This document shows, in pieces, positions 7,199 through 22,260 of a stretch of DNA of 64,000 nt. The stretch spans positions 434,001 to 498,000 of the forward strand of contig JAQUIJ010000001.1 in NCBI GenBank assembly GCA_028683385.1, in the 5' to 3' direction. Numbering within the stretch: the first letter of the stretch is position 1; each line of letters starts with the position of its first letter. This DNA comes from Prolixibacteraceae bacterium (GTDB taxonomy: Bacteria; Bacteroidota; Bacteroidia; Bacteroidales; Prolixibacteraceae). A program made the translations under genes and the position numbers. The notes under the pieces are model-generated. The model made no database searches. It was not told where the DNA came from and was given only the letters and a program-made list of their open reading frames with translations.

Positions 7199-7981
7199 TT
7201 ACGATTTCGTTGCAATGGTATTAATAAAACCTGAAACTTTTTGCTCGATTGTACTGTGTCCTTCGAGTGCTTTCACAAATGCTGAACCAATGATTGCACC
7301 ACTGGCATATTGGCAGGCATTCCTGAATGTTTCGGCATTTGAAATCCCAAATCCAATCAACCTTGGATTTTTTAATGACATTGAATTTACACGTTCAAAA
7401 TATTGTTTCTGAAAGTCGGACACACTGGTTTTGGCGCCGGTGGTTGAATTGCTCGAAACCATGTAAATAAACCCGGTTGATACCTCATCAATTTTGCGAA
7501 GTCGTTCGTCCGAAGTTTGAGGCGTGATCAGGAATATATTGTGCAGGTTATTGGCTTCAAAAACAGCTTTGAATTCTGTTTCATAAACATCCAATGGTAA
7601 ATCGGGAATAATCAATCCATCGATTCCAATTTCATTGCATTTTTTGCAAAAGGCTTCCACTCCATATTGAAGCACTGGGTTAATGTACCCCATCAGGATA
7701 AGCGGAATTTCAACTGATTGGCGGATGTCTTTCAATTGGTCGAACAGTTTTCGAATGCTCATGCCATTTTGTAATGCAATCAGGCTGCTGTGCTGAATCA
7801 CTGGGCCATCAGCCACCGGATCAGAAAAAGGCATCCCGATTTCAATCAGATCAACTCCATTCTTAACCAACTCCTGAATAACAGGAACTGTATCTTCCAG
7901 ACTTGGATATCCGGCTGTAAAATATACCGAAAGCACCTGTTCCTTTTTCTCCTGAAATAGCTTATTTATTCTATTGTTCAT
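7199..7981 (-). CDS. trpA: Tryptophan synthase alpha chain
   Basis: A 260-residue TIM barrel that cleaves indole-3-glycerol phosphate to indole and glyceraldehyde 3-phosphate. The catalytic Glu47 and Asp58 are visible in DLIEIGMPFSDPVADGP, and the phosphate-binding end has GFGISNAE and GAIIGSAFVKAL. Length is normal for the family. It is the last gene of the trpEGDCFBA operon and is separated from trpB by 362 bases filled with repeat elements, an unusually wide gap for two subunits of one complex whose genes often overlap. Confidence 0.97.
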   Translation of the reverse strand: MNNRINKLFQEKKEQVLSVYFTAGYPSLEDTVPVIQELVKNGVDLIEIGMPFSDPVADGPVIQHSSLIALQNGMSIRKLFDQLKDIRQSVEIPLILMGYINPVLQYGVEAFCKKCNEIGIDGLIIPDLPLDVYETEFKAVFEANNLHNIFLITPQTSDERLRKIDEVSTGFIYMVSSNSTTGAKTSVSDFQKQYFERVNSMSLKNPRLIGFGISNAETFRNACQYASGAIIGSAFVKALEGHSTIEQKVSGFINTIATKS

Positions 7982-8343: not shown

Positions 8344-9525
8344 TTAATATCCAAAATGTTTCAAATAAGTTTCCATGTCTTTGTCGCCCCTTCCGGAGAT
8401 ATTAACCACGGTAACTTCTTCAGGTTTCATCTGAATCTTCTTTAATGCGGCCAATGCGTGTGCCGATTCCAGTGCCGGAATAATTCCTTCGAGTTGAGTC
8501 AGTTCAAGCGCAGCATCCAATACTTCGGCATCGGTTGCCCATAAGTATTCGGCACGTTTGGTCTTGAACAAATTAGCGTGCATCGGACCAATCCCGGGGT
8601 AATCCAACCCAGCCGAAATCGAGTATGGCTCAGTAATCTGGCCATCGCGGGTCTGCATCAGAATCGAACGTGAACTATGCAAAACTCCTGGCGAACCCAA
8701 AGTCAAAGTAGCAGCCGTTTCCGGAGTATCAACACCCAATCCGGCCGCTTCTACGCCAATTAGTTTCACGTTTTCCTGATCGAGAAAATGGTAAAAAGCC
8801 CCGGCAGCATTGCTTCCTCCACCCACACAAGCAATTATCCGATCAGGATTTTCTTTACCGGTTTGCTCTTCCAACTGCCAGCGAATTTCTTCTGAAATCA
8901 CTGCCTGAAACCGCGCCACCATGTCGGGATATGGATGCGGCCCGACGACCGAACCAATGATGTAATGCGTATCAACCGGATTGTTGATCCAGTCGCGCAT
9001 TGCTTCGTTGGTAGCATCTTTCAGGGTTTGGTTACCGCTGATAGCCGGAATAACTTCAGCACCCAGCATCTTCATTTTTTTTACATTCGGCGCCTGACGT
9101 TCCACATCAACAGCACCCATATAAACAATACATTTCAGACCCATCAAGGCACAAACCGTAGCAGTTGCCAGCCCATGCTGACCAGCGCCGGTTTCAGCAA
9201 TGATGCGGTGTTTACCCAATTTTTTGGCCACCAGAATCTGCCCAATGGTATTGTTTATTTTATGCGAGCCGGTATGATTCAAATCTTCGCGCTTCAGATA
9301 AATGTTTGTTTGGTATTTTTCTGAAAGCCGTTTGGCGTAATACAAAGGTGATGGCCGCCCCACGTAGTTTTTGAGCAAGCCAATAAATTCCTGCCTGAAG
9401 TCGTACGAATTGATGATTTCGAGATAATTCAAACGTAATTCTTCGATATTAGGCACCATCATTTCGGGGATGTATGCCCCGCCAAATTCGCCGTAATAAC
9501 CTTTTTGATTCACTTGATAATTCAT
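8344..9525 (-). CDS. trpB: Tryptophan synthase beta chain
   Basis: A 393-residue PLP enzyme that condenses indole with L-serine. The PLP-binding lysine is Lys89 in [10 protein letters not shown], and the phosphate-binding loop GGGSNAAG is present. The N-terminal [17 protein letters not shown] segment is the typical TrpB1 start, so this is the ordinary TrpA-dependent form and not TrpB2. It lies 26 bases downstream of trpF, the only trp junction without a repeat element. Confidence 0.98.
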
Positions 9526-12868: not shown

Positions 12869-14278
12869 CTAGTTGATATCTTTTGCTATTTCGAGCGCTT
12901 TTTTCAGAGCGCCCAATTTGTTATTCACTTCCTGAAGTTCGCTTTCTTCCTGCGAATCGGCTACAATTCCGGCACCCGCCTGATAATAGAGCGTATTACC
13001 TTTGCTCAGGAACGAGCGGATCATGATGGCATGATTCAAGGTATGATCGAAGCCAAGGTAACCAATGCAACCGCCATAAAAGCTGCGGCGCTGATTTTCA
13101 TACCGGTCGATCAATGTCATCGCCATGTGCTTTGGAGCTCCCGACAAAGTTCCGGCAGGAAATGAATCGCCCAAAACAGTAATCATGTTGGTATCTTCAG
13201 GTAATTTTCCTGAGACTTCGGATACTAAATGAATCACATGCGAGAAATATTGAACCTGACGATAACTGTCGACGGTTACATTGCTGGCATTGCGGCTCAA
13301 ATCATTTCGGGCAAGATCAACCAGCATTACATGCTCGGCATTTTCTTTTGGATCGGCGCACAAACGTTCGGCAGCGACACGATCATCTTCGTCGTTTCCG
13401 GTGCGCTTAAAAGTTCCGGCAATCGGATTGATAATGGCACGATCTTTCTTGATGCGTAATTCAGCTTCAGGACTAGAACCAAATATGCGGTAAGTTCCGT
13501 AGTCGAAGAAAAACAAATATGGCGATGGATTAACCGAACGTAAAGCGCGGTAAACATTGAACTCGTCGCCTTTAAACGGCTGCGAAAACTGACGCGAAAG
13601 TACAATTTGAAAAACATCGCCACGGAAACAATGTTCCTTGCCTTTGCTAACCATGTATTTATATTCTTCGTTGGTGATGTTTGAAACTTCGTCACCCACC
13701 GTATCGAACTGCGTTGGCGAAAAAGTCAGGTTTCGAAGCAGCGATTCAATTTGACCAATCTCTTTAGTCTCGCCTTCCATCAGGTTTTCGATCAGATAAA
13801 TCATGTCTTTATGATGATCGATAGCTACAATGTACTTGTAAAAACAATATTTCACTTCAGGAACCGAGTATGCTTCCTTCTTTTCTGCTGTGATTTCAAT
13901 CTTCTCGAAATACTTCACCGCATCGTAACCAATATAGCCGAACAGGCCATTTGCCGGTAGGTTTTCGGTTTCTCCAGATAATTTGAACGACTTGAAAAAG
14001 GCATCCAGTTGTTGATCGACCCGGCATTCCGGCGAAATGGTTTTAGTTTCCTTTTCGCGACCATTGTATTCGATGGTTATTTCACCCGAATCGGCTGTAA
14101 AGCACGCCATGGGTTTGATACAGATAAACGAATACGCATTTTCGTGACCGTGATAGTCGGAACTTTCGAGCAAAATCGAGTTGGGAAATAGATCCCTGAA
14201 TTTCAGGTAAACGCTCACCGGAGTCAAGGTGTCGGCAAGGATCTTTTTTACGCTGACTTCTACGTTAATTTCTTTCAT
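12869..14278 (-). CDS. trpE: Anthranilate synthase component I
   Basis: A 469-residue chorismate-binding enzyme that makes anthranilate with ammonia from TrpG. Family motifs are NPSPYLFFFDYG, FGSSPEAELRI, NPIAGTFKRTGNDEDD, HVMLVDLARNDLSRN and GCIGYLG. The N-terminal LLESSDYHGHENAYSFI contains the LLES motif that binds feedback-inhibiting tryptophan in studied homologues, so both enzyme activity and transcription of the operon appear tryptophan-controlled. It is the first structural gene; a 300-base leader with two Trp-rich peptides precedes it. Confidence 0.97.
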   Translation of the reverse strand: MKEINVEVSVKKILADTLTPVSVYLKFRDLFPNSILLESSDYHGHENAYSFICIKPMACFTADSGEITIEYNGREKETKTISPECRVDQQLDAFFKSFKLSGETENLPANGLFGYIGYDAVKYFEKIEITAEKKEAYSVPEVKYCFYKYIVAIDHHKDMIYLIENLMEGETKEIGQIESLLRNLTFSPTQFDTVGDEVSNITNEEYKYMVSKGKEHCFRGDVFQIVLSRQFSQPFKGDEFNVYRALRSVNPSPYLFFFDYGTYRIFGSSPEAELRIKKDRAIINPIAGTFKRTGNDEDDRVAAERLCADPKENAEHVMLVDLARNDLSRNASNVTVDSYRQVQYFSHVIHLVSEVSGKLPEDTNMITVLGDSFPAGTLSGAPKHMAMTLIDRYENQRRSFYGGCIGYLGFDHTLNHAIMIRSFLSKGNTLYYQAGAGIVADSQEESELQEVNNKLGALKKALEIAKDIN

Positions 14279-14308
14279 GTGTATGTTTTTGTTATAAAAT
14301 TTTCGAAT

Positions 14309-14342
14309 AAAAAAAGCGGCTTACCGTGTTCCGATAAGCCGC
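14309..14342 (-). terminator. Second trp attenuator terminator (trpE-proximal)
   Basis: Arms GCGGCTTA (14342-14335) and TAAGCCGC (14323-14316) form a perfect 8-bp stem followed by seven T residues (14315-14309) on the minus strand, 31 bases before the trpE start. It follows leader peptide 2. The segment TACCGTG inside leader 2 (14388-14382) can pair with CACGGTA in the loop and right arm (14328-14322), which would block the terminator. The A-run on the other side would also make it work on the plus strand, but no plus gene is present. Confidence 0.85.
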
Positions 14343-14370
14343 TTTTTTGTTCATTTTTTGACAATGATAG

Positions 14371-14439
14371 CTACTTCCTTCCACGGTATTGCGAAAAGTT
14401 TCTGTGCCACCACCAAATATTTTTCATTGTAATCATCAT
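14371..14439 (-). CDS. trpL: Trp operon leader peptide 2 (three consecutive Trp codons)
   Basis: A short minus-strand frame with three in-frame ATG codons (14439, 14436 and 14427). From the last one it reads MKNIWWWHRNFSQYRGRK and stops at TAG 14373-14371. Three consecutive TGG codons (14415-14407) in an 18-residue peptide are extremely unlikely by chance and are the hallmark of ribosome-mediated trp attenuation. The IWWW core resembles known trp leader peptides of other phyla. The matching terminator is at 14309-14342. Not previously annotated by length-based gene finders because it is too short. Confidence 0.82.
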   Translation of the reverse strand: MMITMKNIWWWHRNFSQYRGRK

Positions 14440-14453
14440 TCTCTGCTTAAATT

Positions 14454-14485
14454 AAAAAACCTGCTATTCCGGAGAGAAGCAGGCC
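14454..14485 (-). terminator. First trp attenuator terminator (promoter-proximal)
   Basis: Arms CCTGCT (14483-14478) and AGCAGG (14465-14460) are followed by six T residues (14459-14454) on the minus strand. The left arm with two further G residues (14485-14475) can instead pair with AGAAGTAAGAGCC just after leader peptide 1 (14524-14512) with two single-base bulges, giving a plausible antiterminator. Confidence 0.8.
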
Positions 14486-14505
14486 TTAGTATAGTTTTAA
14501 AATAC

Positions 14506-14564
14506 CAATATGGCTCTTACTTCTTACTTTTTAGAAAGAAGACCCCACCACGGAAGCCATATTG
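14506..14564 (-). promoter_or_regulatory. Leader 1 protector hairpin (1:2 pairing) of the trp attenuator
   Basis: CAATATGGCT (14564-14555), which includes the first Trp codon of leader peptide 1, is perfectly complementary over 10 bases to AGCCATATTG (14515-14506), located just after the peptide stop codon. A ribosome stalled at the Trp codons would disrupt this pairing and free the downstream strand for the antiterminator. Confidence 0.7.
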
Positions 14565-14583
14565 TATTTGTATTTTGAATCAT
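14524..14583 (-). CDS. trpL: Trp operon leader peptide 1 (Trp codons at 9, 12, 13)
   Basis: A 19-residue minus-strand frame, ATG at 14583 to TAA at 14526-14524, reading MIQNTNTIWLPWWGLLSKK. Three of 19 codons are TGG. It lies 100 bases past the sprA stop codon and is followed by alternative RNA pairings and a terminator at 14454-14485. Together these form a textbook-like attenuator. A second independent leader peptide follows at 14439-14371, so the operon has two in tandem. Confidence 0.82.
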   Translation of the reverse strand: MIQNTNTIWLPWWGLLSKK

Positions 14584-14682
14584 GTTTTTAAAATCTGATG
14601 TAAAAAAATGAAATTAATAAGAGAATAACAAGTGTTCTGAACGAAAAGTTTGAAAAAAGTCAATTGTCATTAGAACGATGTT

Positions 14683-17600
14683 CTACTGTGCCAGTGTAAA
14701 CCTAAAGCTTACTCCAAAATTGGTTGTTGAAGTTTTGAAAGACCCGACAAGCGGATGATTCAGAACTTTATCGTAATACAGACGCAGTTGGAAACGATCA
14801 CTAAGCATATAATCTGCTGTAGTTTTTAGTGTAACATTATTCTGTCCTGCCGTCAGTTGTTGATCCTCTTCAACAATTTTACGGAGGATAGTCATATTTT
14901 TTCTAAACGACAGATCTGCTCTTACATTTAAATCATTGGAATAGGCTTTTTGCGATTTTTTTGTTTTTACAATCAAGTCCATCCGGGTAAATCGATATCC
15001 AACCCCGAAAACCATTTCTTTGCTTAACACCTCGGTAAGCTGGTTGTTTGAGAAACTTAAAGCAAGGTTACGTGAAGATTTAAGCTCAACTCTGGTTTCA
15101 AAGTCGTTAATCCACGTCATATCCAGTCCAATCAGCGGACTAAACTGCTCTGAAATACTTACCGAATTAATGTCGTTAGGGCCAACAAAATCGCCAAGCG
15201 TATTTCGCACGTAACTAAAGCCATCGCCATATAATTTTTCGTTGTAATCAAGATTAGAAATAAATGATCCCACATTATAACTCGACCGGTAAGCGTGGTT
15301 AAAACTTAAGGTTTTAAAGTATTTCTTCAGAAATTCTGACTTAGAAACAACTCCTTCATAAGTGATTCTCCAATTTGGACGCATGTATTTTATAGATGGG
15401 AACGGACTTAATGGAACCTTATCGGCCGACTGTCCGGTATAAGCCGCAATAAATGCAGGCACCAATACCTGAGGTGAAGTTGAACCGTAACCAACCGGAA
15501 ATCCAGTATTTGGATCGGGAACATTCGGATTGTAGCCTTGAGCTCCAGCCCTTTGATTGGCAAGTCTCTGGGCAATTATCACCCGGTTATTCTTTAGCTC
15601 ATCAAATGCTTTAGACGGATAGGTTACATTACCATCAGCATCCGTTTTTGACATCTTACTGAAAGCCGTATTCATGGTATTGATAGACATGGTAAAATTA
15701 CCACTTACCGATCGATTGGCCTGATCAAACTGATGAGTTGAACTGTCGTAATTATAAAACTCAGTACTACGTTCAGAATAGGTACGGTTCGCATTTAAAT
15801 CAATACGAAGATCAGGAAAAGGTTCAACATTGGCACGGAAACTAAACGTTTCGCTGTGCGACATAACATATGGTGCATTGAGTGTTGTGTCACGCGTAAT
15901 CCAACCTTTCGCTGCAGCCTTCATGGCAAAATCTTTGTCTTGCCATCCAAGAAGGAAGGGAATTCCAGGGGCGGTCGTCTGTCCGGGAAGATCGCTATAC
16001 ATGGTTTGGTCAGGTGTATAATTACCAACTCCAAAAATACGCGGTTCAGGCATAAATCCGGGCATCACAGTTCCGTCGGTTGTTGAATAACTTAATGAAA
16101 TGCTGCGAACACTCATTAACGCACGTGCTGTGTACTGAATCAGCTTCTGACCTAAATCATGGACGACCTCAATTTTCCCTTTAACCACAAACTTCACTCC
16201 CGATAAACTTTTATCAGTAGTAAAACTGACACGGTTTTCATTAACAACAACAACTTCCCCTTTAACTATTGAGCCATCTTTACCAATTGCAGTTACTTCA
16301 ACATCCTTCGTTTTAAGCTTGTGAAATATCGATTTGGGCGTATTGGCTTTTAACCGAACATTGTCAGTCGAATACTGAACAACTTTTATTTTTGGTGCAG
16401 CCTTTTCCTTAACAGGAGCCGCTTGTTTCGGCTGGCCCGACTTACCCTGTCCTTGTCCTTGGCGGGATCTGTCCATGCGCTGCTGTTGTCGTGAACTGGT
16501 TCCGTATTTCTGGTTTATATCCTTTAAAAATCCCACTTTATTATAAAGAGTAACCATATTGAGCTGGCCATTCATCTGAAGGTTCCGCGAGTTTTCGATC
16601 ACGTTTCCGAGAACCACCGATTTATCAGTAATTGCTCCGGCCTGCCAATCGTACATTCCCTGATAGCGAGCTGAAAGCGAAGTCCAGTCGAGCAATGGTA
16701 ATTTGTTGATTGGCACCATATAATTTGCATTGATCACGTGGTGATACAATGTTGGACGGCCCAAATTGAGTAAATTGGCTATAATTGAGTCTCTTTTTAA
16801 TGTGTAGTCATCGTCGTTACGGTTAATGCGACCGGCCGGTTCATCAATACGGGCAGTATTCTGTGACGAAAAATCCAACTCCAGACTGCGCGTTAAATTA
16901 TACCGTAAATCAACATAGCGGTTCCAAATAAACTCTTTATTAAAAGTGGGCGAAACAATCAGGTTTGGATTTGAAATATTTCGCAACTGTATTTCATTGT
17001 AATACCGGTACAAATCTGTCCGGAATGAAAATTGTGACGGCATAGGCGAAATATTGAAATCGCGGATCAACCTGAAAATATTGCTTTTCAGAAGTTTCGA
17101 GTTTTTAAATGGCTCGTAAATTGCCGGCCTATTGTTGAAATTGTAGGAAAATAATGCCCGATATGTTTTTTCGACATTGAATTCGGTATTGACATTCCGG
17201 CGATTAACCTTGCTATAAGCGTAGGTTACCGAAAAATTGGTCGGGTCATAAAACCGTGGCTTGCCCGACTTGCTGGTTTTATCGATTTTTACATTTGTGA
17301 AATTGAGACTCTTTCGAACAACCAAATCCTGGGCAATATTTTTGATCGAATCTTTTGCAGCCTTACTTCCGGCGTTGCTGAGCGCATCTTTCATCTTTAT
17401 ATCCTCGTCAACCGGATTGTATTTCGGATTGCTAACACTTCGAGAATAGCCATAATACATTGGTATTTTAACTTGTGCCTTTTCAGGGAAAAATTTACCA
17501 AGTTCAAGGTTGGCAGCCACATCGATTTGGCTCAAATCGGCCATCGCTCGCTCGTTCACCTTCTGGTTAATACTTCCAAACCCAACACTTCTGTAGCTAC

Positions 17601-20600
17601 CTGCCATTATTACTGTTCCCAAATCGGCCAAACGTGCGGTAACCCTTCCGTTTGCAGCCCAACCTCCACTTTCGTCAAGGCCGGTTAAAGCGAGCTCGTT
17701 TAGCCAGACTTCAATCGACTTTGGTCCATAATTGTTGAGGTCTTTATCTTTATAGCGAATACCAAGCATCATCACCTCCACGTTACCCAAATTTGGATTT
17801 CCCTTGATACTGATGGTTCGCGTTCCTTTCAGAATTGAATATACTTTCGATAAACTAACTCCTGAATTAGCTGTGCGAAGTTCTGCATTTCGTTTCAGTT
17901 TCAAATTAGTAAGAACATCCAGAGCAAGATCCACACGGTTTGTATCGGGCCAAACAGCATATCTGTCGGCTTCGTTATTGCTTTCATAATTAGGGCCCGG
18001 TTGCGTCAATGAAAGCGGAATCTCATACTCGTAGTAATTGTTATAATAATCAGAACCAACGCGAACAAACAAAGATAAATCGCCATCTTTAATCGATGGC
18101 AGCCCTTCAACGGCTTCGGCATGAACATCCATTTTAAGCCGTTTATAATTACGGAAATCCATACTCAGATTCTTGTAGGCAGCACGCGACTCACCTTCCT
18201 CCAAATCAATTGCACGCATAACCAATGACTGTTCGTTCAATTGAAGAAGCTGCGGACTGGATGGGTCGATAACCCGCTCGACTCCCGGAGGCAACACGTA
18301 ATGTATCGGAGATCGGCTGGCATTCTCTTCAATATTTACTGCTGAAAGGTCGAATTGAGAGTTTAAATTGGTATTTAAATTACCATCGACATTGCCGGTA
18401 TATTTACGCCAATCGGCACGAACCAAATCGAGCGTGGCAAAACGTAGGAATGTAGGCTGAGAGAAACCTTTCAGAAACATCCTCATAAAACGAATCGATT
18501 TGAAATCGGAAATGGATCCAAATGCTGCATCCGGATTTTTGACCGGTATTTTGAACTGATACCACCTCACAGAATCCGCTACTGTATTATTTTTTAATTT
18601 AACATTCCGGGCAACCCTGATATCGGCAATCGAATTTTTGCCAACTACCATATCTTCACGACGAACACTTATTTTATATTGGAAATAACGTTCGTATTCA
18701 TTTAAGGTATTGTCGCCGTTAATATCCTCCATGTCGGGTTGTGTGGAAGCTGAAGTTGTATACGACTCTTTCGACATTTCTGCTGTTGGCGAGTTTCCAT
18801 CCGGGCCATTAAAGTTTTTGTACCGCTCCAATATCCCAACTTGATCCTTATCATAGTCAGATCCCCGGAAATAATGAAAATCATCACTCGAAGGATCTGC
18901 CTCAACTTTGGCAAGTGCAACCGGATTCAGGATAGTTTTCAATGTTTCCAGATAGGGTTTTCTGAAATTTTGTTCATCGGTATCGTTCATACCATCTAAA
19001 CCGAGATCCTGATACGTGCGACTTTTAACATTATTATCGAACTCCCTTACAAGAGACTGTTGTTTGGGGACCCTTCCCCAGGCTGTTGAGTCCACATTGG
19101 CTAATTCGGCTGTGGTTGGCAATCCATTTTCGAATGACTTCCGCGAGTCTTTCAAAATATCTTCCGATACATCGCCCAGGTTAAAATACAAATCGCCCCC
19201 TTGGTTCTGTTTAAGCGAATCGTTGATAAAAGGGTCCATCACCCAGAATTCGATGTACTCAATGTTTGCTGCTTCAAAATCGGTAGTCTCAACTTTGCGC
19301 ATCATACCTCCCCAACGAGACTCCGGATCGCGAAGCGTTCCATCAGCATTCACCCCACGTGAATATGCAGAAGGCTGACTATCGAAATTATATGGTCCCC
19401 TTTCTTCCGGATAAAAAGCAAGATCCAGAATCGGAATATTTGTTGGTAATCCTATTTGTGTTTGTCGGTCTGGGAAAAGTTCAGATTCATAAACTTCACG
19501 AACAAAATGATTTGACTGAAGGTCTGCATTCTTCTTAATGTAATCGGGTGTTGTAGGGCTGTTTCGTAAAAACAGCGGATCAATAACATACCAGGCCAGC
19601 TTTGCCCGGTTGAAACCATATGCGAGATCATCAGTTAAAGATGCTTCAGGAAACATGTTCTGTTTTTGCGGGGTACTTGCCAACACCCAGGCAGAACGCG
19701 TTTTCATATCAATCGAAGTCTTTGTTGCCTCAAAGTCGTCGATATATACTGTACCAGTTCCTGTTATAACTTTGGAATGACCAGGAACCAACTTGGCAAA
19801 CTCGCCGTCAAATGCTATTGATGAATTTTCCTTGGTTGAATAAAACGGTAATTTATCGAGCATTTTAGTTAGTAACCGTGATTGATTGGAATAACTTGCA
19901 TCCAATCCAAACATTGTATTTGAAATCGGATCATCGCCATAATTAACTTTCTGCGTTAATGGCCGTTCTTCCATATGCAAAACGGTTGCACCCAAGCTAA
20001 ATCGGTCGTTGAAGGCATAATTAGCATGTGTCCCGATAAGTGTCTTGCGTTGCATACTGAAAAGGTCCTGACTTTCGGTGGAGACCTGGAGCGCTGACCC
20101 TGATTCAAGCAACCCTGCATTAATAATCTTCACTATTCCGGAGGCATAATCTACTGTATAGTCTACGTTTTCAGTCAGGGTGATCCCTCCTGAGGTGACT
20201 TTAACAGAACCTCGGGCCAAATTTTGCGCATTTACCGATATTTCATTACTCGATGAGCCTTTATACGACCCTTTCAACTTGAATTTATTGTGTTCGGCAT
20301 CCTGTATGGCAACCGTTTTTGTTGAATCGTAAAGAGTCGTATAAGCATATTGCTTTGCCAGAATTGGATCGCCAATCGAATCGGCAAGGAACTTCCCGAA
20401 TGGCTCCAAAACCGGAAAAATGATTTTTCCTGAATTCGAAATAACTGTAATACCTTCGATGTAATCGAACATTCCATCCCGACCTAAATCCAGTTGAGTA
20501 TTGACCTTATCGAGATTCAATACATTCAGTAAAATATGTCCTTTCAACCTTCCTTCAGGCAGATAATTGATTTTAGTTCCGGCTTTATCGTTCTGATACA

Positions 20601-22260
20601 AAACGTCGAGAATAAAGTTCTCATTGGTTAGCTGATAGGCATTCAAGTCATAAACGTTTTTCATCATCAGCTTCCATACCGGAATCCGTGGCGAAAGGTT
20701 AGTTCCTTTCAACAACTTCAGGATCAAAGTTTCCGGGGCATTAATACCATCAGTAGAAAACTCCCCAACCTGGTACGTTTTTCCGTTAGCGGTGTAGTTG
20801 AATGCTACTGCCAGTATTTCATCCGAATTTAAAGCCGACCGTAACGAAATATATCCGAGGTTTTTATTGATGGTGTATTCTGACTCGCTAAGTAAACGTG
20901 CCTGTTCAATTTTTTCAAAATCCTGTCCTCCTGTAAATTTAGATGCTTCAAGCGGTGAAAGGGTTTTATTAATGATTGGAAATTGACGAACCCCGGAATA
21001 GTTGGTACTAATTTGATTATACAACCCATTAGCTCCATTAAAAGGGAAAATAGATTCGGGATATGCTTGCCCCGAATTTTCCTGAAAAGCACCAACTTTA
21101 TTGTAAATATTCGGATCGTGCTCGCCCAAATCCATAAAAGCCAATATGTTACGCGACGATGTAAAATTGCTCGATTTGTTGGTGACCCATACCTCAATTT
21201 TGTTAATAGTTATGGATGAACTTACAATTGGCAGATTTTTAAGCGCTGCATCGTAATGATCGCGGAAATATTGCGCCAGGAAAAAGTGCCGGTTGGCATC
21301 GTAATCAGAAGCTGCAATCTCAAACGTTTTCTTCTGGGCTCCACCTTCCGACTCAATTACTTTAGTTTCGCCTTTACTCTGCGAAAAAATAGTTGTCAGG
21401 TTCAGTTTTCCAAACTGCAATTCAGTTTTAACTCCGAAAAGATTGGTTCCTCCGGTGATAAGCGAACCGTTCAATGGAAGTGAAACGTTACCGGCCTCAA
21501 TCTTTTTAACAATCTGATCCTCATCGCCAGTATAGCCCAGATTCATTTTGTTTTCGTAATCGAAAGTGGCTTCCGTATTGTAGTTGACCCGCATTTCCAT
21601 TTTATCGCCAATCTTTCCGGTCACATTCATCTGGATTTTCTGATTGAAATCGAAAGTTGGTACTTTGCGCAATCGCTCAGGTATTGATGGATTCTCGGTG
21701 GAATTCATCTGGTAACCGAAACTAACTTCGACATAACCCTGTGGGCGAATATCGATGGTATTGCTACCAAAAATCTTATTGAAGGTTTCGCCGCCAACAG
21801 TTAAACGGGGTATGAAACCACCTTTATCTTCGACGCTTTTAATGTGAGTCTGGTTGCGCCAGTAGTTCTGAACGGCCTGTTCAAAATCGTATTTTTGGAA
21901 TTCTTTTTTGGTCATGGTTTTTGGCAACCTGTAATTCAGATCGCCAACTTTTTCCAGAAAATTGTATTCGCCGGTTACCGGATCGTATTCAACTTCGGTT
22001 TTAATATTCGAAGGAGTTTTCAGGAAAAGCTTTGAACTGTCTTTTTTATCGGGATAGGCAAATGCGGGTTCGTCCTTAAACTTATAGGGTAATACTCCGG
22101 TAGTATCAATTCTGACGGTATCTTTTGGAGCCGACAAAACAGGGAGTAAATTATAATTCCTGAGAGTTGTTCTTGATAGGATAGGATTACCTACAAGAGC
22201 ATAAAAAAAAGATACAATAAATAGTATAAGTATGTTTCTGCCGTACTTTTTCAATTCCAA
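14683..22260 (-). CDS. sprA: Cell surface protein SprA, type IX secretion system outer-membrane translocon
   Basis: A 2,525-residue exported protein beginning with a hydrophobic segment (ILILFIVSFFYALVG). In studied Bacteroidota SprA is the giant outer-membrane beta-barrel that forms the T9SS conduit. The sequence shows long runs of alternating amphipathic strands throughout, SprA-typical segments such as GSNTIDIRPQGYVEVSFGYQ and TGTVYIDDFEATKTSIDMKTRSAWVLAS, and a C-terminal strand ending FGVSFRFTLAQ. A low-complexity Gln/Gly/Lys/Pro stretch (RQGQGQGKSGQPKQAAP) lies near residue 1,930. It follows ruvA by 13 bases, a ruvA-sprA order also known from Flavobacterium. Its presence implies T9SS cargo secretion, although no cargo with a C-terminal domain was recognised in this window. 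Confidence 0.96.
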   Translation of the reverse strand: MELKKYGRNILILFIVSFFYALVGNPILSRTTLRNYNLLPVLSAPKDTVRIDTTGVLPYKFKDEPAFAYPDKKDSSKLFLKTPSNIKTEVEYDPVTGEYNFLEKVGDLNYRLPKTMTKKEFQKYDFEQAVQNYWRNQTHIKSVEDKGGFIPRLTVGGETFNKIFGSNTIDIRPQGYVEVSFGYQMNSTENPSIPERLRKVPTFDFNQKIQMNVTGKIGDKMEMRVNYNTEATFDYENKMNLGYTGDEDQIVKKIEAGNVSLPLNGSLITGGTNLFGVKTELQFGKLNLTTIFSQSKGETKVIESEGGAQKKTFEIAASDYDANRHFFLAQYFRDHYDAALKNLPIVSSSITINKIEVWVTNKSSNFTSSRNILAFMDLGEHDPNIYNKVGAFQENSGQAYPESIFPFNGANGLYNQISTNYSGVRQFPIINKTLSPLEASKFTGGQDFEKIEQARLLSESEYTINKNLGYISLRSALNSDEILAVAFNYTANGKTYQVGEFSTDGINAPETLILKLLKGTNLSPRIPVWKLMMKNVYDLNAYQLTNENFILDVLYQNDKAGTKINYLPEGRLKGHILLNVLNLDKVNTQLDLGRDGMFDYIEGITVISNSGKIIFPVLEPFGKFLADSIGDPILAKQYAYTTLYDSTKTVAIQDAEHNKFKLKGSYKGSSSNEISVNAQNLARGSVKVTSGGITLTENVDYTVDYASGIVKIINAGLLESGSALQVSTESQDLFSMQRKTLIGTHANYAFNDRFSLGATVLHMEERPLTQKVNYGDDPISNTMFGLDASYSNQSRLLTKMLDKLPFYSTKENSSIAFDGEFAKLVPGHSKVITGTGTVYIDDFEATKTSIDMKTRSAWVLASTPQKQNMFPEASLTDDLAYGFNRAKLAWYVIDPLFLRNSPTTPDYIKKNADLQSNHFVREVYESELFPDRQTQIGLPTNIPILDLAFYPEERGPYNFDSQPSAYSRGVNADGTLRDPESRWGGMMRKVETTDFEAANIEYIEFWVMDPFINDSLKQNQGGDLYFNLGDVSEDILKDSRKSFENGLPTTAELANVDSTAWGRVPKQQSLVREFDNNVKSRTYQDLGLDGMNDTDEQNFRKPYLETLKTILNPVALAKVEADPSSDDFHYFRGSDYDKDQVGILERYKNFNGPDGNSPTAEMSKESYTTSASTQPDMEDINGDNTLNEYERYFQYKISVRREDMVVGKNSIADIRVARNVKLKNNTVADSVRWYQFKIPVKNPDAAFGSISDFKSIRFMRMFLKGFSQPTFLRFATLDLVRADWRKYTGNVDGNLNTNLNSQFDLSAVNIEENASRSPIHYVLPPGVERVIDPSSPQLLQLNEQSLVMRAIDLEEGESRAAYKNLSMDFRNYKRLKMDVHAEAVEGLPSIKDGDLSLFVRVGSDYYNNYYEYEIPLSLTQPGPNYESNNEADRYAVWPDTNRVDLALDVLTNLKLKRNAELRTANSGVSLSKVYSILKGTRTISIKGNPNLGNVEVMMLGIRYKDKDLNNYGPKSIEVWLNELALTGLDESGGWAANGRVTARLADLGTVIMAGSYRSVGFGSINQKVNERAMADLSQIDVAANLELGKFFPEKAQVKIPMYYGYSRSVSNPKYNPVDEDIKMKDALSNAGSKAAKDSIKNIAQDLVVRKSLNFTNVKIDKTSKSGKPRFYDPTNFSVTYAYSKVNRRNVNTEFNVEKTYRALFSYNFNNRPAIYEPFKNSKLLKSNIFRLIRDFNISPMPSQFSFRTDLYRYYNEIQLRNISNPNLIVSPTFNKEFIWNRYVDLRYNLTRSLELDFSSQNTARIDEPAGRINRNDDDYTLKRDSIIANLLNLGRPTLYHHVINANYMVPINKLPLLDWTSLSARYQGMYDWQAGAITDKSVVLGNVIENSRNLQMNGQLNMVTLYNKVGFLKDINQKYGTSSRQQQRMDRSRQGQGQGKSGQPKQAAPVKEKAAPKIKVVQYSTDNVRLKANTPKSIFHKLKTKDVEVTAIGKDGSIVKGEVVVVNENRVSFTTDKSLSGVKFVVKGKIEVVHDLGQKLIQYTARALMSVRSISLSYSTTDGTVMPGFMPEPRIFGVGNYTPDQTMYSDLPGQTTAPGIPFLLGWQDKDFAMKAAAKGWITRDTTLNAPYVMSHSETFSFRANVEPFPDLRIDLNANRTYSERSTEFYNYDSSTHQFDQANRSVSGNFTMSINTMNTAFSKMSKTDADGNVTYPSKAFDELKNNRVIIAQRLANQRAGAQGYNPNVPDPNTGFPVGYGSTSPQVLVPAFIAAYTGQSADKVPLSPFPSIKYMRPNWRITYEGVVSKSEFLKKYFKTLSFNHAYRSSYNVGSFISNLDYNEKLYGDGFSYVRNTLGDFVGPNDINSVSISEQFSPLIGLDMTWINDFETRVELKSSRNLALSFSNNQLTEVLSKEMVFGVGYRFTRMDLIVKTKKSQKAYSNDLNVRADLSFRKNMTILRKIVEEDQQLTAGQNNVTLKTTADYMLSDRFQLRLYYDKVLNHPLVGSFKTSTTNFGVSFRFTLAQ

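Follow-up and report, generated by a model that had tools for sequence, protein, structure and literature searches.

The window, the whole 64,000-nt stretch of DNA that was analysed, carries the trp operon trpEGDCFBA on its minus strand, with trpE as its first gene and its far end at position 7199. Two short Trp-rich open reading frames (ORFs) are located on the same strand between the stop of sprA (14683) and the start of trpE (14278). The features of the region are the following, in the order in which the minus strand is read.

14683-22260, minus strand: sprA, T9SS translocon (TIGR04189), with its stop at 14683
14601-14631, minus strand: candidate promoter ahead of leader 1, positioned by eye (a strict pattern is unmatched in the window)
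14524-14583, minus strand: leader ORF1, encoding MIQNTNTIWLPWWGLLSKK and a stop, with Trp codons at 14559-14557, 14550-14548 and 14547-14545
14500-14569, minus strand: core hairpin, made of P1, the near-invariant stretch UUCCGUGGUGGGGU and P3
14569-14555 with 14515-14500, minus strand: P1 of the core hairpin, with one bulge
14541-14536 with 14525-14520, minus strand: P3 of the core hairpin
14512-14524, minus strand: upstream strand of antiterminator 1 (the 3' strand of P3 and the GCC of P1), partner 14485-14475
14456-14487, minus strand: terminator 1, as given by the detector (-13.0 kcal/mol)
14371-14427, minus strand: leader ORF2, encoding MKNIWWWHRNFSQYRGRK and a stop; the ORF would be longer if it began at another in-frame ATG, at 14439
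14382-14388, minus strand: upstream strand of antiterminator 2 (UACCGUG), partner CACGGUA at 14328-14322
14310-14348, minus strand: terminator 2, as given by the detector (-25.0 kcal/mol)
12869-14278, minus strand: trpE

The end of sprA lies about 100 nt ahead of leader 1 on the same strand. Inspection of this gap by eye did not reveal a strong terminator, so that read-through from sprA into trp is possible.

A first-pass annotation of this DNA had proposed two tandem leader peptides, each with a terminator of its own, acting by ribosome-mediated attenuation. Its coordinates for both Trp-rich ORFs were borne out, and we recovered one terminator per leader, the protector pairing and antiterminator of leader 1 and the UACCGUG/CACGGUA pairing of leader 2. 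Both terminators were absent from the list of a simple consensus terminator scanner. The 342-nt leader was predicted to fold at -91.5 kcal/mol (z of -6.9), and none of 100 shuffled sequences reached an energy as low. Across both strands of the window we found five ATG-initiated ORFs of 7-40 amino acids with at least three clustered Trp codons, and only ORF1 and ORF2 had a terminator (-8 kcal/mol or better, at most 150 nt from the ORF). When the requirement was relaxed to at least two Trp codons, three of ten ORFs had a terminator, the third being located at 9017 (-9.7). When the leader itself was shuffled, at least one ORF with three Trp codons appeared in 7 of 5000 sequences and two such ORFs in none of 5000.

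We then compared the region across 140 genomes of the window's family, of which 127 presented TrpE (E 1e-100) and 121 offered upstream DNA of 300 nt or more. Automatic detection identified two leader-terminator units in 78 of these 121 genomes, one in 31 and none in 12. These counts include two genomes scored as none whose contigs end in the region (G016, G017), one scored as one that contains a run of Ns (G135), and two scored as one that present ORF1 and a leader 2 with one terminator undetected (G020, G063). Losses of leaders run both ways, since G041 and G132 show leader 2 only. By eye, G136 (L204) and G084 (L191) seemingly possess a leader-1-type attenuator alone, with leader 2 lost or decayed. 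In G133, G137 and G139, leader 1 consists of another RNA (with WSWW or WWW) that by eye has the same type of antiterminator and terminator. Among the best 80 TrpE loci of a search of genome contigs, leader 1 was found in only 14 (L003-L015 and L024), which constitute the window's group; three of them (L005-L007) lack terminator 1. Seventy-eight of the 80 loci were long enough to be scored with a detector that requires one terminator for each leader, and 11 presented two units, 59 one and eight none. All 11 two-unit loci belong to the window's group, against none of the 64 other loci. One family genome (G008, L116 1385-1429, minus strand) shows a match to the Rfam family Acido-Lenti-1 between leader and trpE, with 47.5 bits for a threshold of 37.

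The core hairpin of leader 1 was present in 95 genomes. Of these, 75 possess ORF1 and a detected terminator 1, three have a terminator 1 recognized by eye (G018, G019 and G020, the last apparently degraded) and 17 have neither; an in-frame ORF1 ATG was found within 75 nt in 78 of the 95. In all 75 genomes with a detected terminator 1, the closest ATG upstream shares the frame of the Trp codons. It precedes the first of these codons by 21, 24 or 30 nt (in G084, an additional ATG precedes it by 3 nt), and the stop is separated from the end of the core by 10-27 nt. The upstream strand of antiterminator 1 is predicted to pair better with the terminator of its own genome than with those of other genera (means of -13.1 and -9.8 kcal/mol). 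The cognate combination was the better one in 54 of 61 distinct pairs, and no permutation out of 5000 was as good; with one representative for each of nine genera, 2 of 20,000 were (relatedness was not modelled in either case). Folding with a masked ribosome gave, as means of the 75 genomes, 10.6 antiterminator-1 pairs with the ribosome at the last Trp codon, 1.7 in free RNA and 0.04 with the ribosome at the stop. Under a strict definition of the switch, at least five pairs when stalled and fewer than two when free, it was found in 54 of the 75 genomes.

These results suggest how attenuator 1 might operate. When the core hairpin P1/P3 stands, or when a ribosome has reached the ORF1 stop, terminator 1 would form. 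A ribosome short of Trp-tRNA on the UGG codons of ORF1 would instead cover the 5' strands of P1 and P3, and the freed 3' strand of the core could pair with the 5' arm of terminator 1, so that the polymerase reads on. The protector pairing that this scheme needs overlaps the Trp codons in leader 1.

For leader 2, UACCGUG immediately precedes the ORF2 stop, and its partner in terminator 2 is CACGGUA. A GGAAGUU-type strand with the partner AACUUCC occupies this site in g3, g4 and g19. The cognate preference is again visible (-9.6 kcal/mol with the own terminator versus -7.9 kcal/mol with those of other genera): the own terminator was preferred in 78 of 86 pairs and matched by none of 5000 permutations, and with one representative for each of 20 genera by 2 of 20,000, relatedness being likewise left out of these models. 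Averaged over 107 genomes, antiterminator 2 formed 6.7 pairs with a stalled ribosome, 1.4 in free RNA and 0.0 with the ribosome at the stop, and it reached four pairs in 85 of the 107 genomes when stalled versus 18 when free. A ribosome stalled on the WWW codons would keep UACCGUG available for pairing with the upper part of terminator 2's 3' arm, and a ribosome at the ORF2 stop would cover this strand and let terminator 2 form. In the window itself, free RNA forms antiterminator 2 as well as the stalled one does (8.4 vs 8.5 pairs), which indicates that leader 2 has no visible protector there, and no such pairing was visible in the folding.

The annotation had also proposed folding the leader for terminator versus antiterminator states. 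Both antiterminators form with a stalled ribosome, but when the full-length RNA is folded to equilibrium, terminator 1 prevails in most cases (9.3 pairs versus 2.6 for antiterminator 1 under a stalled ribosome) and terminator 2 is unaffected, with 15.1 pairs in every ribosome state. This implies that the attenuator-1 switch must be kinetic, i.e., co-transcriptional, and that the model for attenuator 2 needs co-transcriptional kinetics as well. In the comparison of relatives that it had called for, the Trp codons, their frame, the position of the stop, the antiterminators and the terminators are co-conserved, as expected for tandem ribosome-mediated attenuation. P1 showed no covariation, with both sides changed in none of 23 consensus pairs (15 sequences). 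Because P1 is almost invariant, covariation says nothing for or against it.

A Bacteroidota-like promoter pattern was matched ahead of the core in 54 of 95 loci (in shuffles, a mean of 16.0 and a maximum of 25) and in the stretch from the core to leader 2 in 2 of 94 (in shuffles, which covered stretches longer than 30 nt, a mean of 5.6 and a maximum of 11; median length 72). This distribution favours a single transcript carrying leader 1 and leader 2, the window itself being without a strict match. On such a transcript, the trp genes would be transcribed only if both attenuators were passed. Two units in series might multiply the dynamic range of repression, as the annotation had supposed.

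The description of leader 1 as a leader peptide is incomplete: its hairpin is also a conserved RNA, kept in the 17 genomes without terminator 1 or a nearby ORF1 ATG (G015, G072, G073-G076, G100, G103-G106, G125-G128, G130 and G131). In these core-only genomes there is no ATG in the W frame within 75 nt, and the core ends 19-36 nt before leader 2. In fifteen of the 17, the W frame can be followed back to a stop without meeting an ATG, GTG or TTG; the exceptions are G076 (a TTG in this frame 30 nt upstream) and G128 (an ATG in this frame 90 nt upstream). In a tree of TrpE with 62 rows, of which 15 are truncated and in which the placement of G100, G130 and g8 is unsure, the core-only state of 16 of the 17 genomes requires three changes, some on long branches.

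One could regard the core of these genomes as a decaying relic of attenuator 1, given that the frame is lost and the terminator absent. However, among the 12 core-only genomes compared (of 17), nucleotides 1-27 of the core's 5' strand are the same in every genome and the entire 34 nt in 11, and in a codon alignment of trpE from the same genomes the fourfold sites have a mean identity of about 0.39 (66 pairs, range 0.23-0.79). The one deviating genome is G015, at positions 28, 31, 33 and 34, which lie within the P3 strand and immediately before it. A relic is strongly disfavoured by this identity, and we give it hardly any credence. P3 is kept with differing sequences: the 95 genomes contain 52 distinct interiors, whose mean stability relative to shuffles corresponds to a z of -2.03, with 40 of the 52 below -1 and 12 not. 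The identity of the 5' strand despite the divergence of trpE, together with the retention of P3, indicates that selection seems to act on the RNA itself, apart from peptide and terminator. Simple attenuation does not account for the retention of the core in 17 genomes. As is looked for in a riboswitch, the core is a conserved structured RNA that is not explained by translation. We propose that the core hairpin would also have a second RNA-level role needing neither ORF1 nor terminator 1. Four explanations other than ours concern the role of the core, the relic being one of them, and none of the four excludes attenuation.

A second explanation places the signal in the DNA, the core being an operator with the inverted repeat CAATATGGCT...AGCCATATTG. 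The arms of the repeat are indeed nearly invariant, but the variable spacing and the P3 helix kept in different sequences point to RNA, and an operator appears very improbable. The core might also be a polymerase pause site or a weak terminator-like hairpin of the 1:2 type that times the loading of the ribosome. P1 is placed like the 1:2 pause hairpin of E. coli, a U-rich stretch follows the core, and core and U-run were flagged as terminator-like in 13 of the 17 core-only genomes. The other four (G075, G076, G103 and G131) were unflagged, the U-run is short in G131 and it could be explained by pairing with AAAUAC, and the invariant loop is not obviously needed for a pause. We view pausing as possible but rather doubtful.

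Finally, leader 1 could primarily be a ligand- or protein-binding RNA in which P1/P3 competes with antiterminator 1 and the Trp codons are secondary. The 27-nt identity, the 15 genomes without any W-frame start and the stability of P3 all agree with this possibility, and the logic of the switch resembles that of an OFF riboswitch. Several observations argue for translation instead: the in-frame ATG of all 75 genomes with a detected terminator 1, the absence of exactly one codon (CCG) in g9 and g17, and the fact that UGGUGGGG is what the codons W-W-G demand. Moreover, three of the 78 tandem genomes (g23) retain Trp-rich leaders with a leader-1 RNA of another type, and the W-frame starts of G076 and G128 also speak against this explanation. 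We searched for further copies with R1, a structure model of the core built from 15 sequences. Within the family, R1 matched 97 of the 140 genomes, from 15 of 23 genera; the match in G078, at least, is due to chance. Three of 393 genomes of the order were matched, two of them in the window's family and the third (G462) weakly and with no adjoining trp gene among the ORFs listed. Thus, with R1, the core was not found outside the window's family among the 393 order genomes, and no second copy at another gene was found in the window's own genome, the 140 family genomes or the 393 order genomes. The secondary matches (G000:C41, G015:C135, G078:C24 and G462) were rejected as chance, by their sequence or their neighbouring ORFs. 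This lack of a second core likewise counts against a binding RNA, an explanation that we consider unlikely overall.

We also examined how the core might act where attenuator 1 is absent. Pairing of the core with terminator 2 or with the start of leader 2 was considered and found no support in permutation tests. In the 17 core-only genomes, the 3' strand of the core did not prefer the 5' arm of its own terminator 2 (cognate -6.23 vs -6.38; 4165 of 5000 permutations as good) or the start region of leader 2 (4301 of 5000), and across all core genomes the core loop did not prefer the 3' arm of terminator 2 (3246 of 5000). Over all core genomes, the pairing of the 3' strand with the 5' arm of terminator 2 was slightly cognate (-7.27 vs -6.79; 0 of 5000). 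In the window, positions 14562-14539 of the core could form 11 pairs with 14328-14318 in the 3' arm of terminator 2 (z about -2), and 11 pairs between the 5' strand of the core and this arm are likewise possible in g7, g15 and g21, but not in g8; the energy is about -17 kcal/mol in the window and in these three. The predicted pairing of these two strands has a mean z of -1.5 in the 17 core-only genomes and -1.9 in the 76 others; it constitutes a weak lead only. A peptide initiated at the AUG inside P1 (MASVVGSS...) was rejected, the third codon positions being as fixed as the rest, with no peptide signal. In G073 (L190), indels bring WW codons in frame with this AUG (MAWWGALIKRVI), and in G100 (L123) they do the same (MANSWWDPSK...), the frame continuing into leader 2.

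Tandem leaders were also sought beyond the family, in 40 upstream regions taken from the 45 non-family Bacteroidales genomes with TrpE. Four regions were flagged with two units, 22 with one and 14 with none. By eye, G145 (L223), G195 (L230) and G218 (L252), which belong to three families, present convincing tandem leaders with terminators of their own and a different RNA. In G168, the upstream ORF (MPLRARAWW) appears to be a chance occurrence and we did not retain this genome.

Overall, a single trp mRNA very probably carries, one after the other, two transcription attenuators of the ribosome-mediated type, with an extra RNA-level role of the core hairpin. Tandem attenuation is well supported by sequence, predicted structure and the matched pairing across genera, from which we infer the response to tryptophan, the existence of one common transcript and the succession of steps. 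This suggests that two translated attenuators responding to one amino acid can be arranged in a stack, and the recurrence of this design in several families of one order renders the value of serial attenuation testable. The core hairpin would be the part likely to surprise a specialist: it is a compact conserved RNA that reached no Rfam threshold where tested, and its conservation where a close peptide start or terminator is missing has to be explained. A more speculative reading, which we think improbable, is that the core is an independent sensor RNA of a new class, with Trp, tRNA-Trp or a protein as its partner, and at the same time supplies the leader peptide with its Trp codons, the sensor alone being left in the 17 genomes. 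If so, one hairpin would be both an aptamer-like element and a ribosome-read attenuator.

The arrangement shares the Trp-codon leader with the trpL-type attenuator of E. coli, and leader 1 also shows its 1:2, 2:3 and 3:4 pairings. It differs in that there are two units in series, that the 1:2 hairpin is nearly invariant in sequence and that antiterminator 2 is directed at the 3' arm of terminator 2. Leader 2 resembles the Rfam family RF01692 (Bacteroid-trp), described as a Trp peptide leader RNA of Bacteroidota and listed in Weinberg 2010 (PMC2864571), to which leader 1 does not belong. Leader 2 of the window scores 29.7 bits against this family, below the gathering threshold of 49, which was reached by none of 13 loci of the window's family and by four of seven other Bacteroidota loci. 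Leader 2 would nevertheless work as a Bacteroid-trp leader does and might be of the same lineage. Clues for leader-peptide attenuation before amino-acid operons exist for Flavobacterium psychrophilum (PMC9723704), and the accessible portion of PMC4833913 contains nothing on tandem leaders. The arrangement had been thought to be undescribed in Bacteroidota. The matches listed from open-licence PubMed Central contained no report of a series of two translated leaders that serve the same amino acid, but serial sensors on a trp operon are not new as a principle. The mgtCBR leader of Salmonella also contains two short ORFs with attenuation; its two signals, ATP and proline, differ, and the abstract presents this tandem arrangement for different signals as singular (PMC3641672). 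No T-box appeared among the 13 Rfam matches up to E 1 at positions 13800-15200 of the window. Tandem T-boxes are reported for trp operons of Bacillota, where two and, as an exception, three RNAs in a row sense the same amino acid (PMC12452182). They precede trp genes as here, but they are T-box RNAs and not translated leaders.
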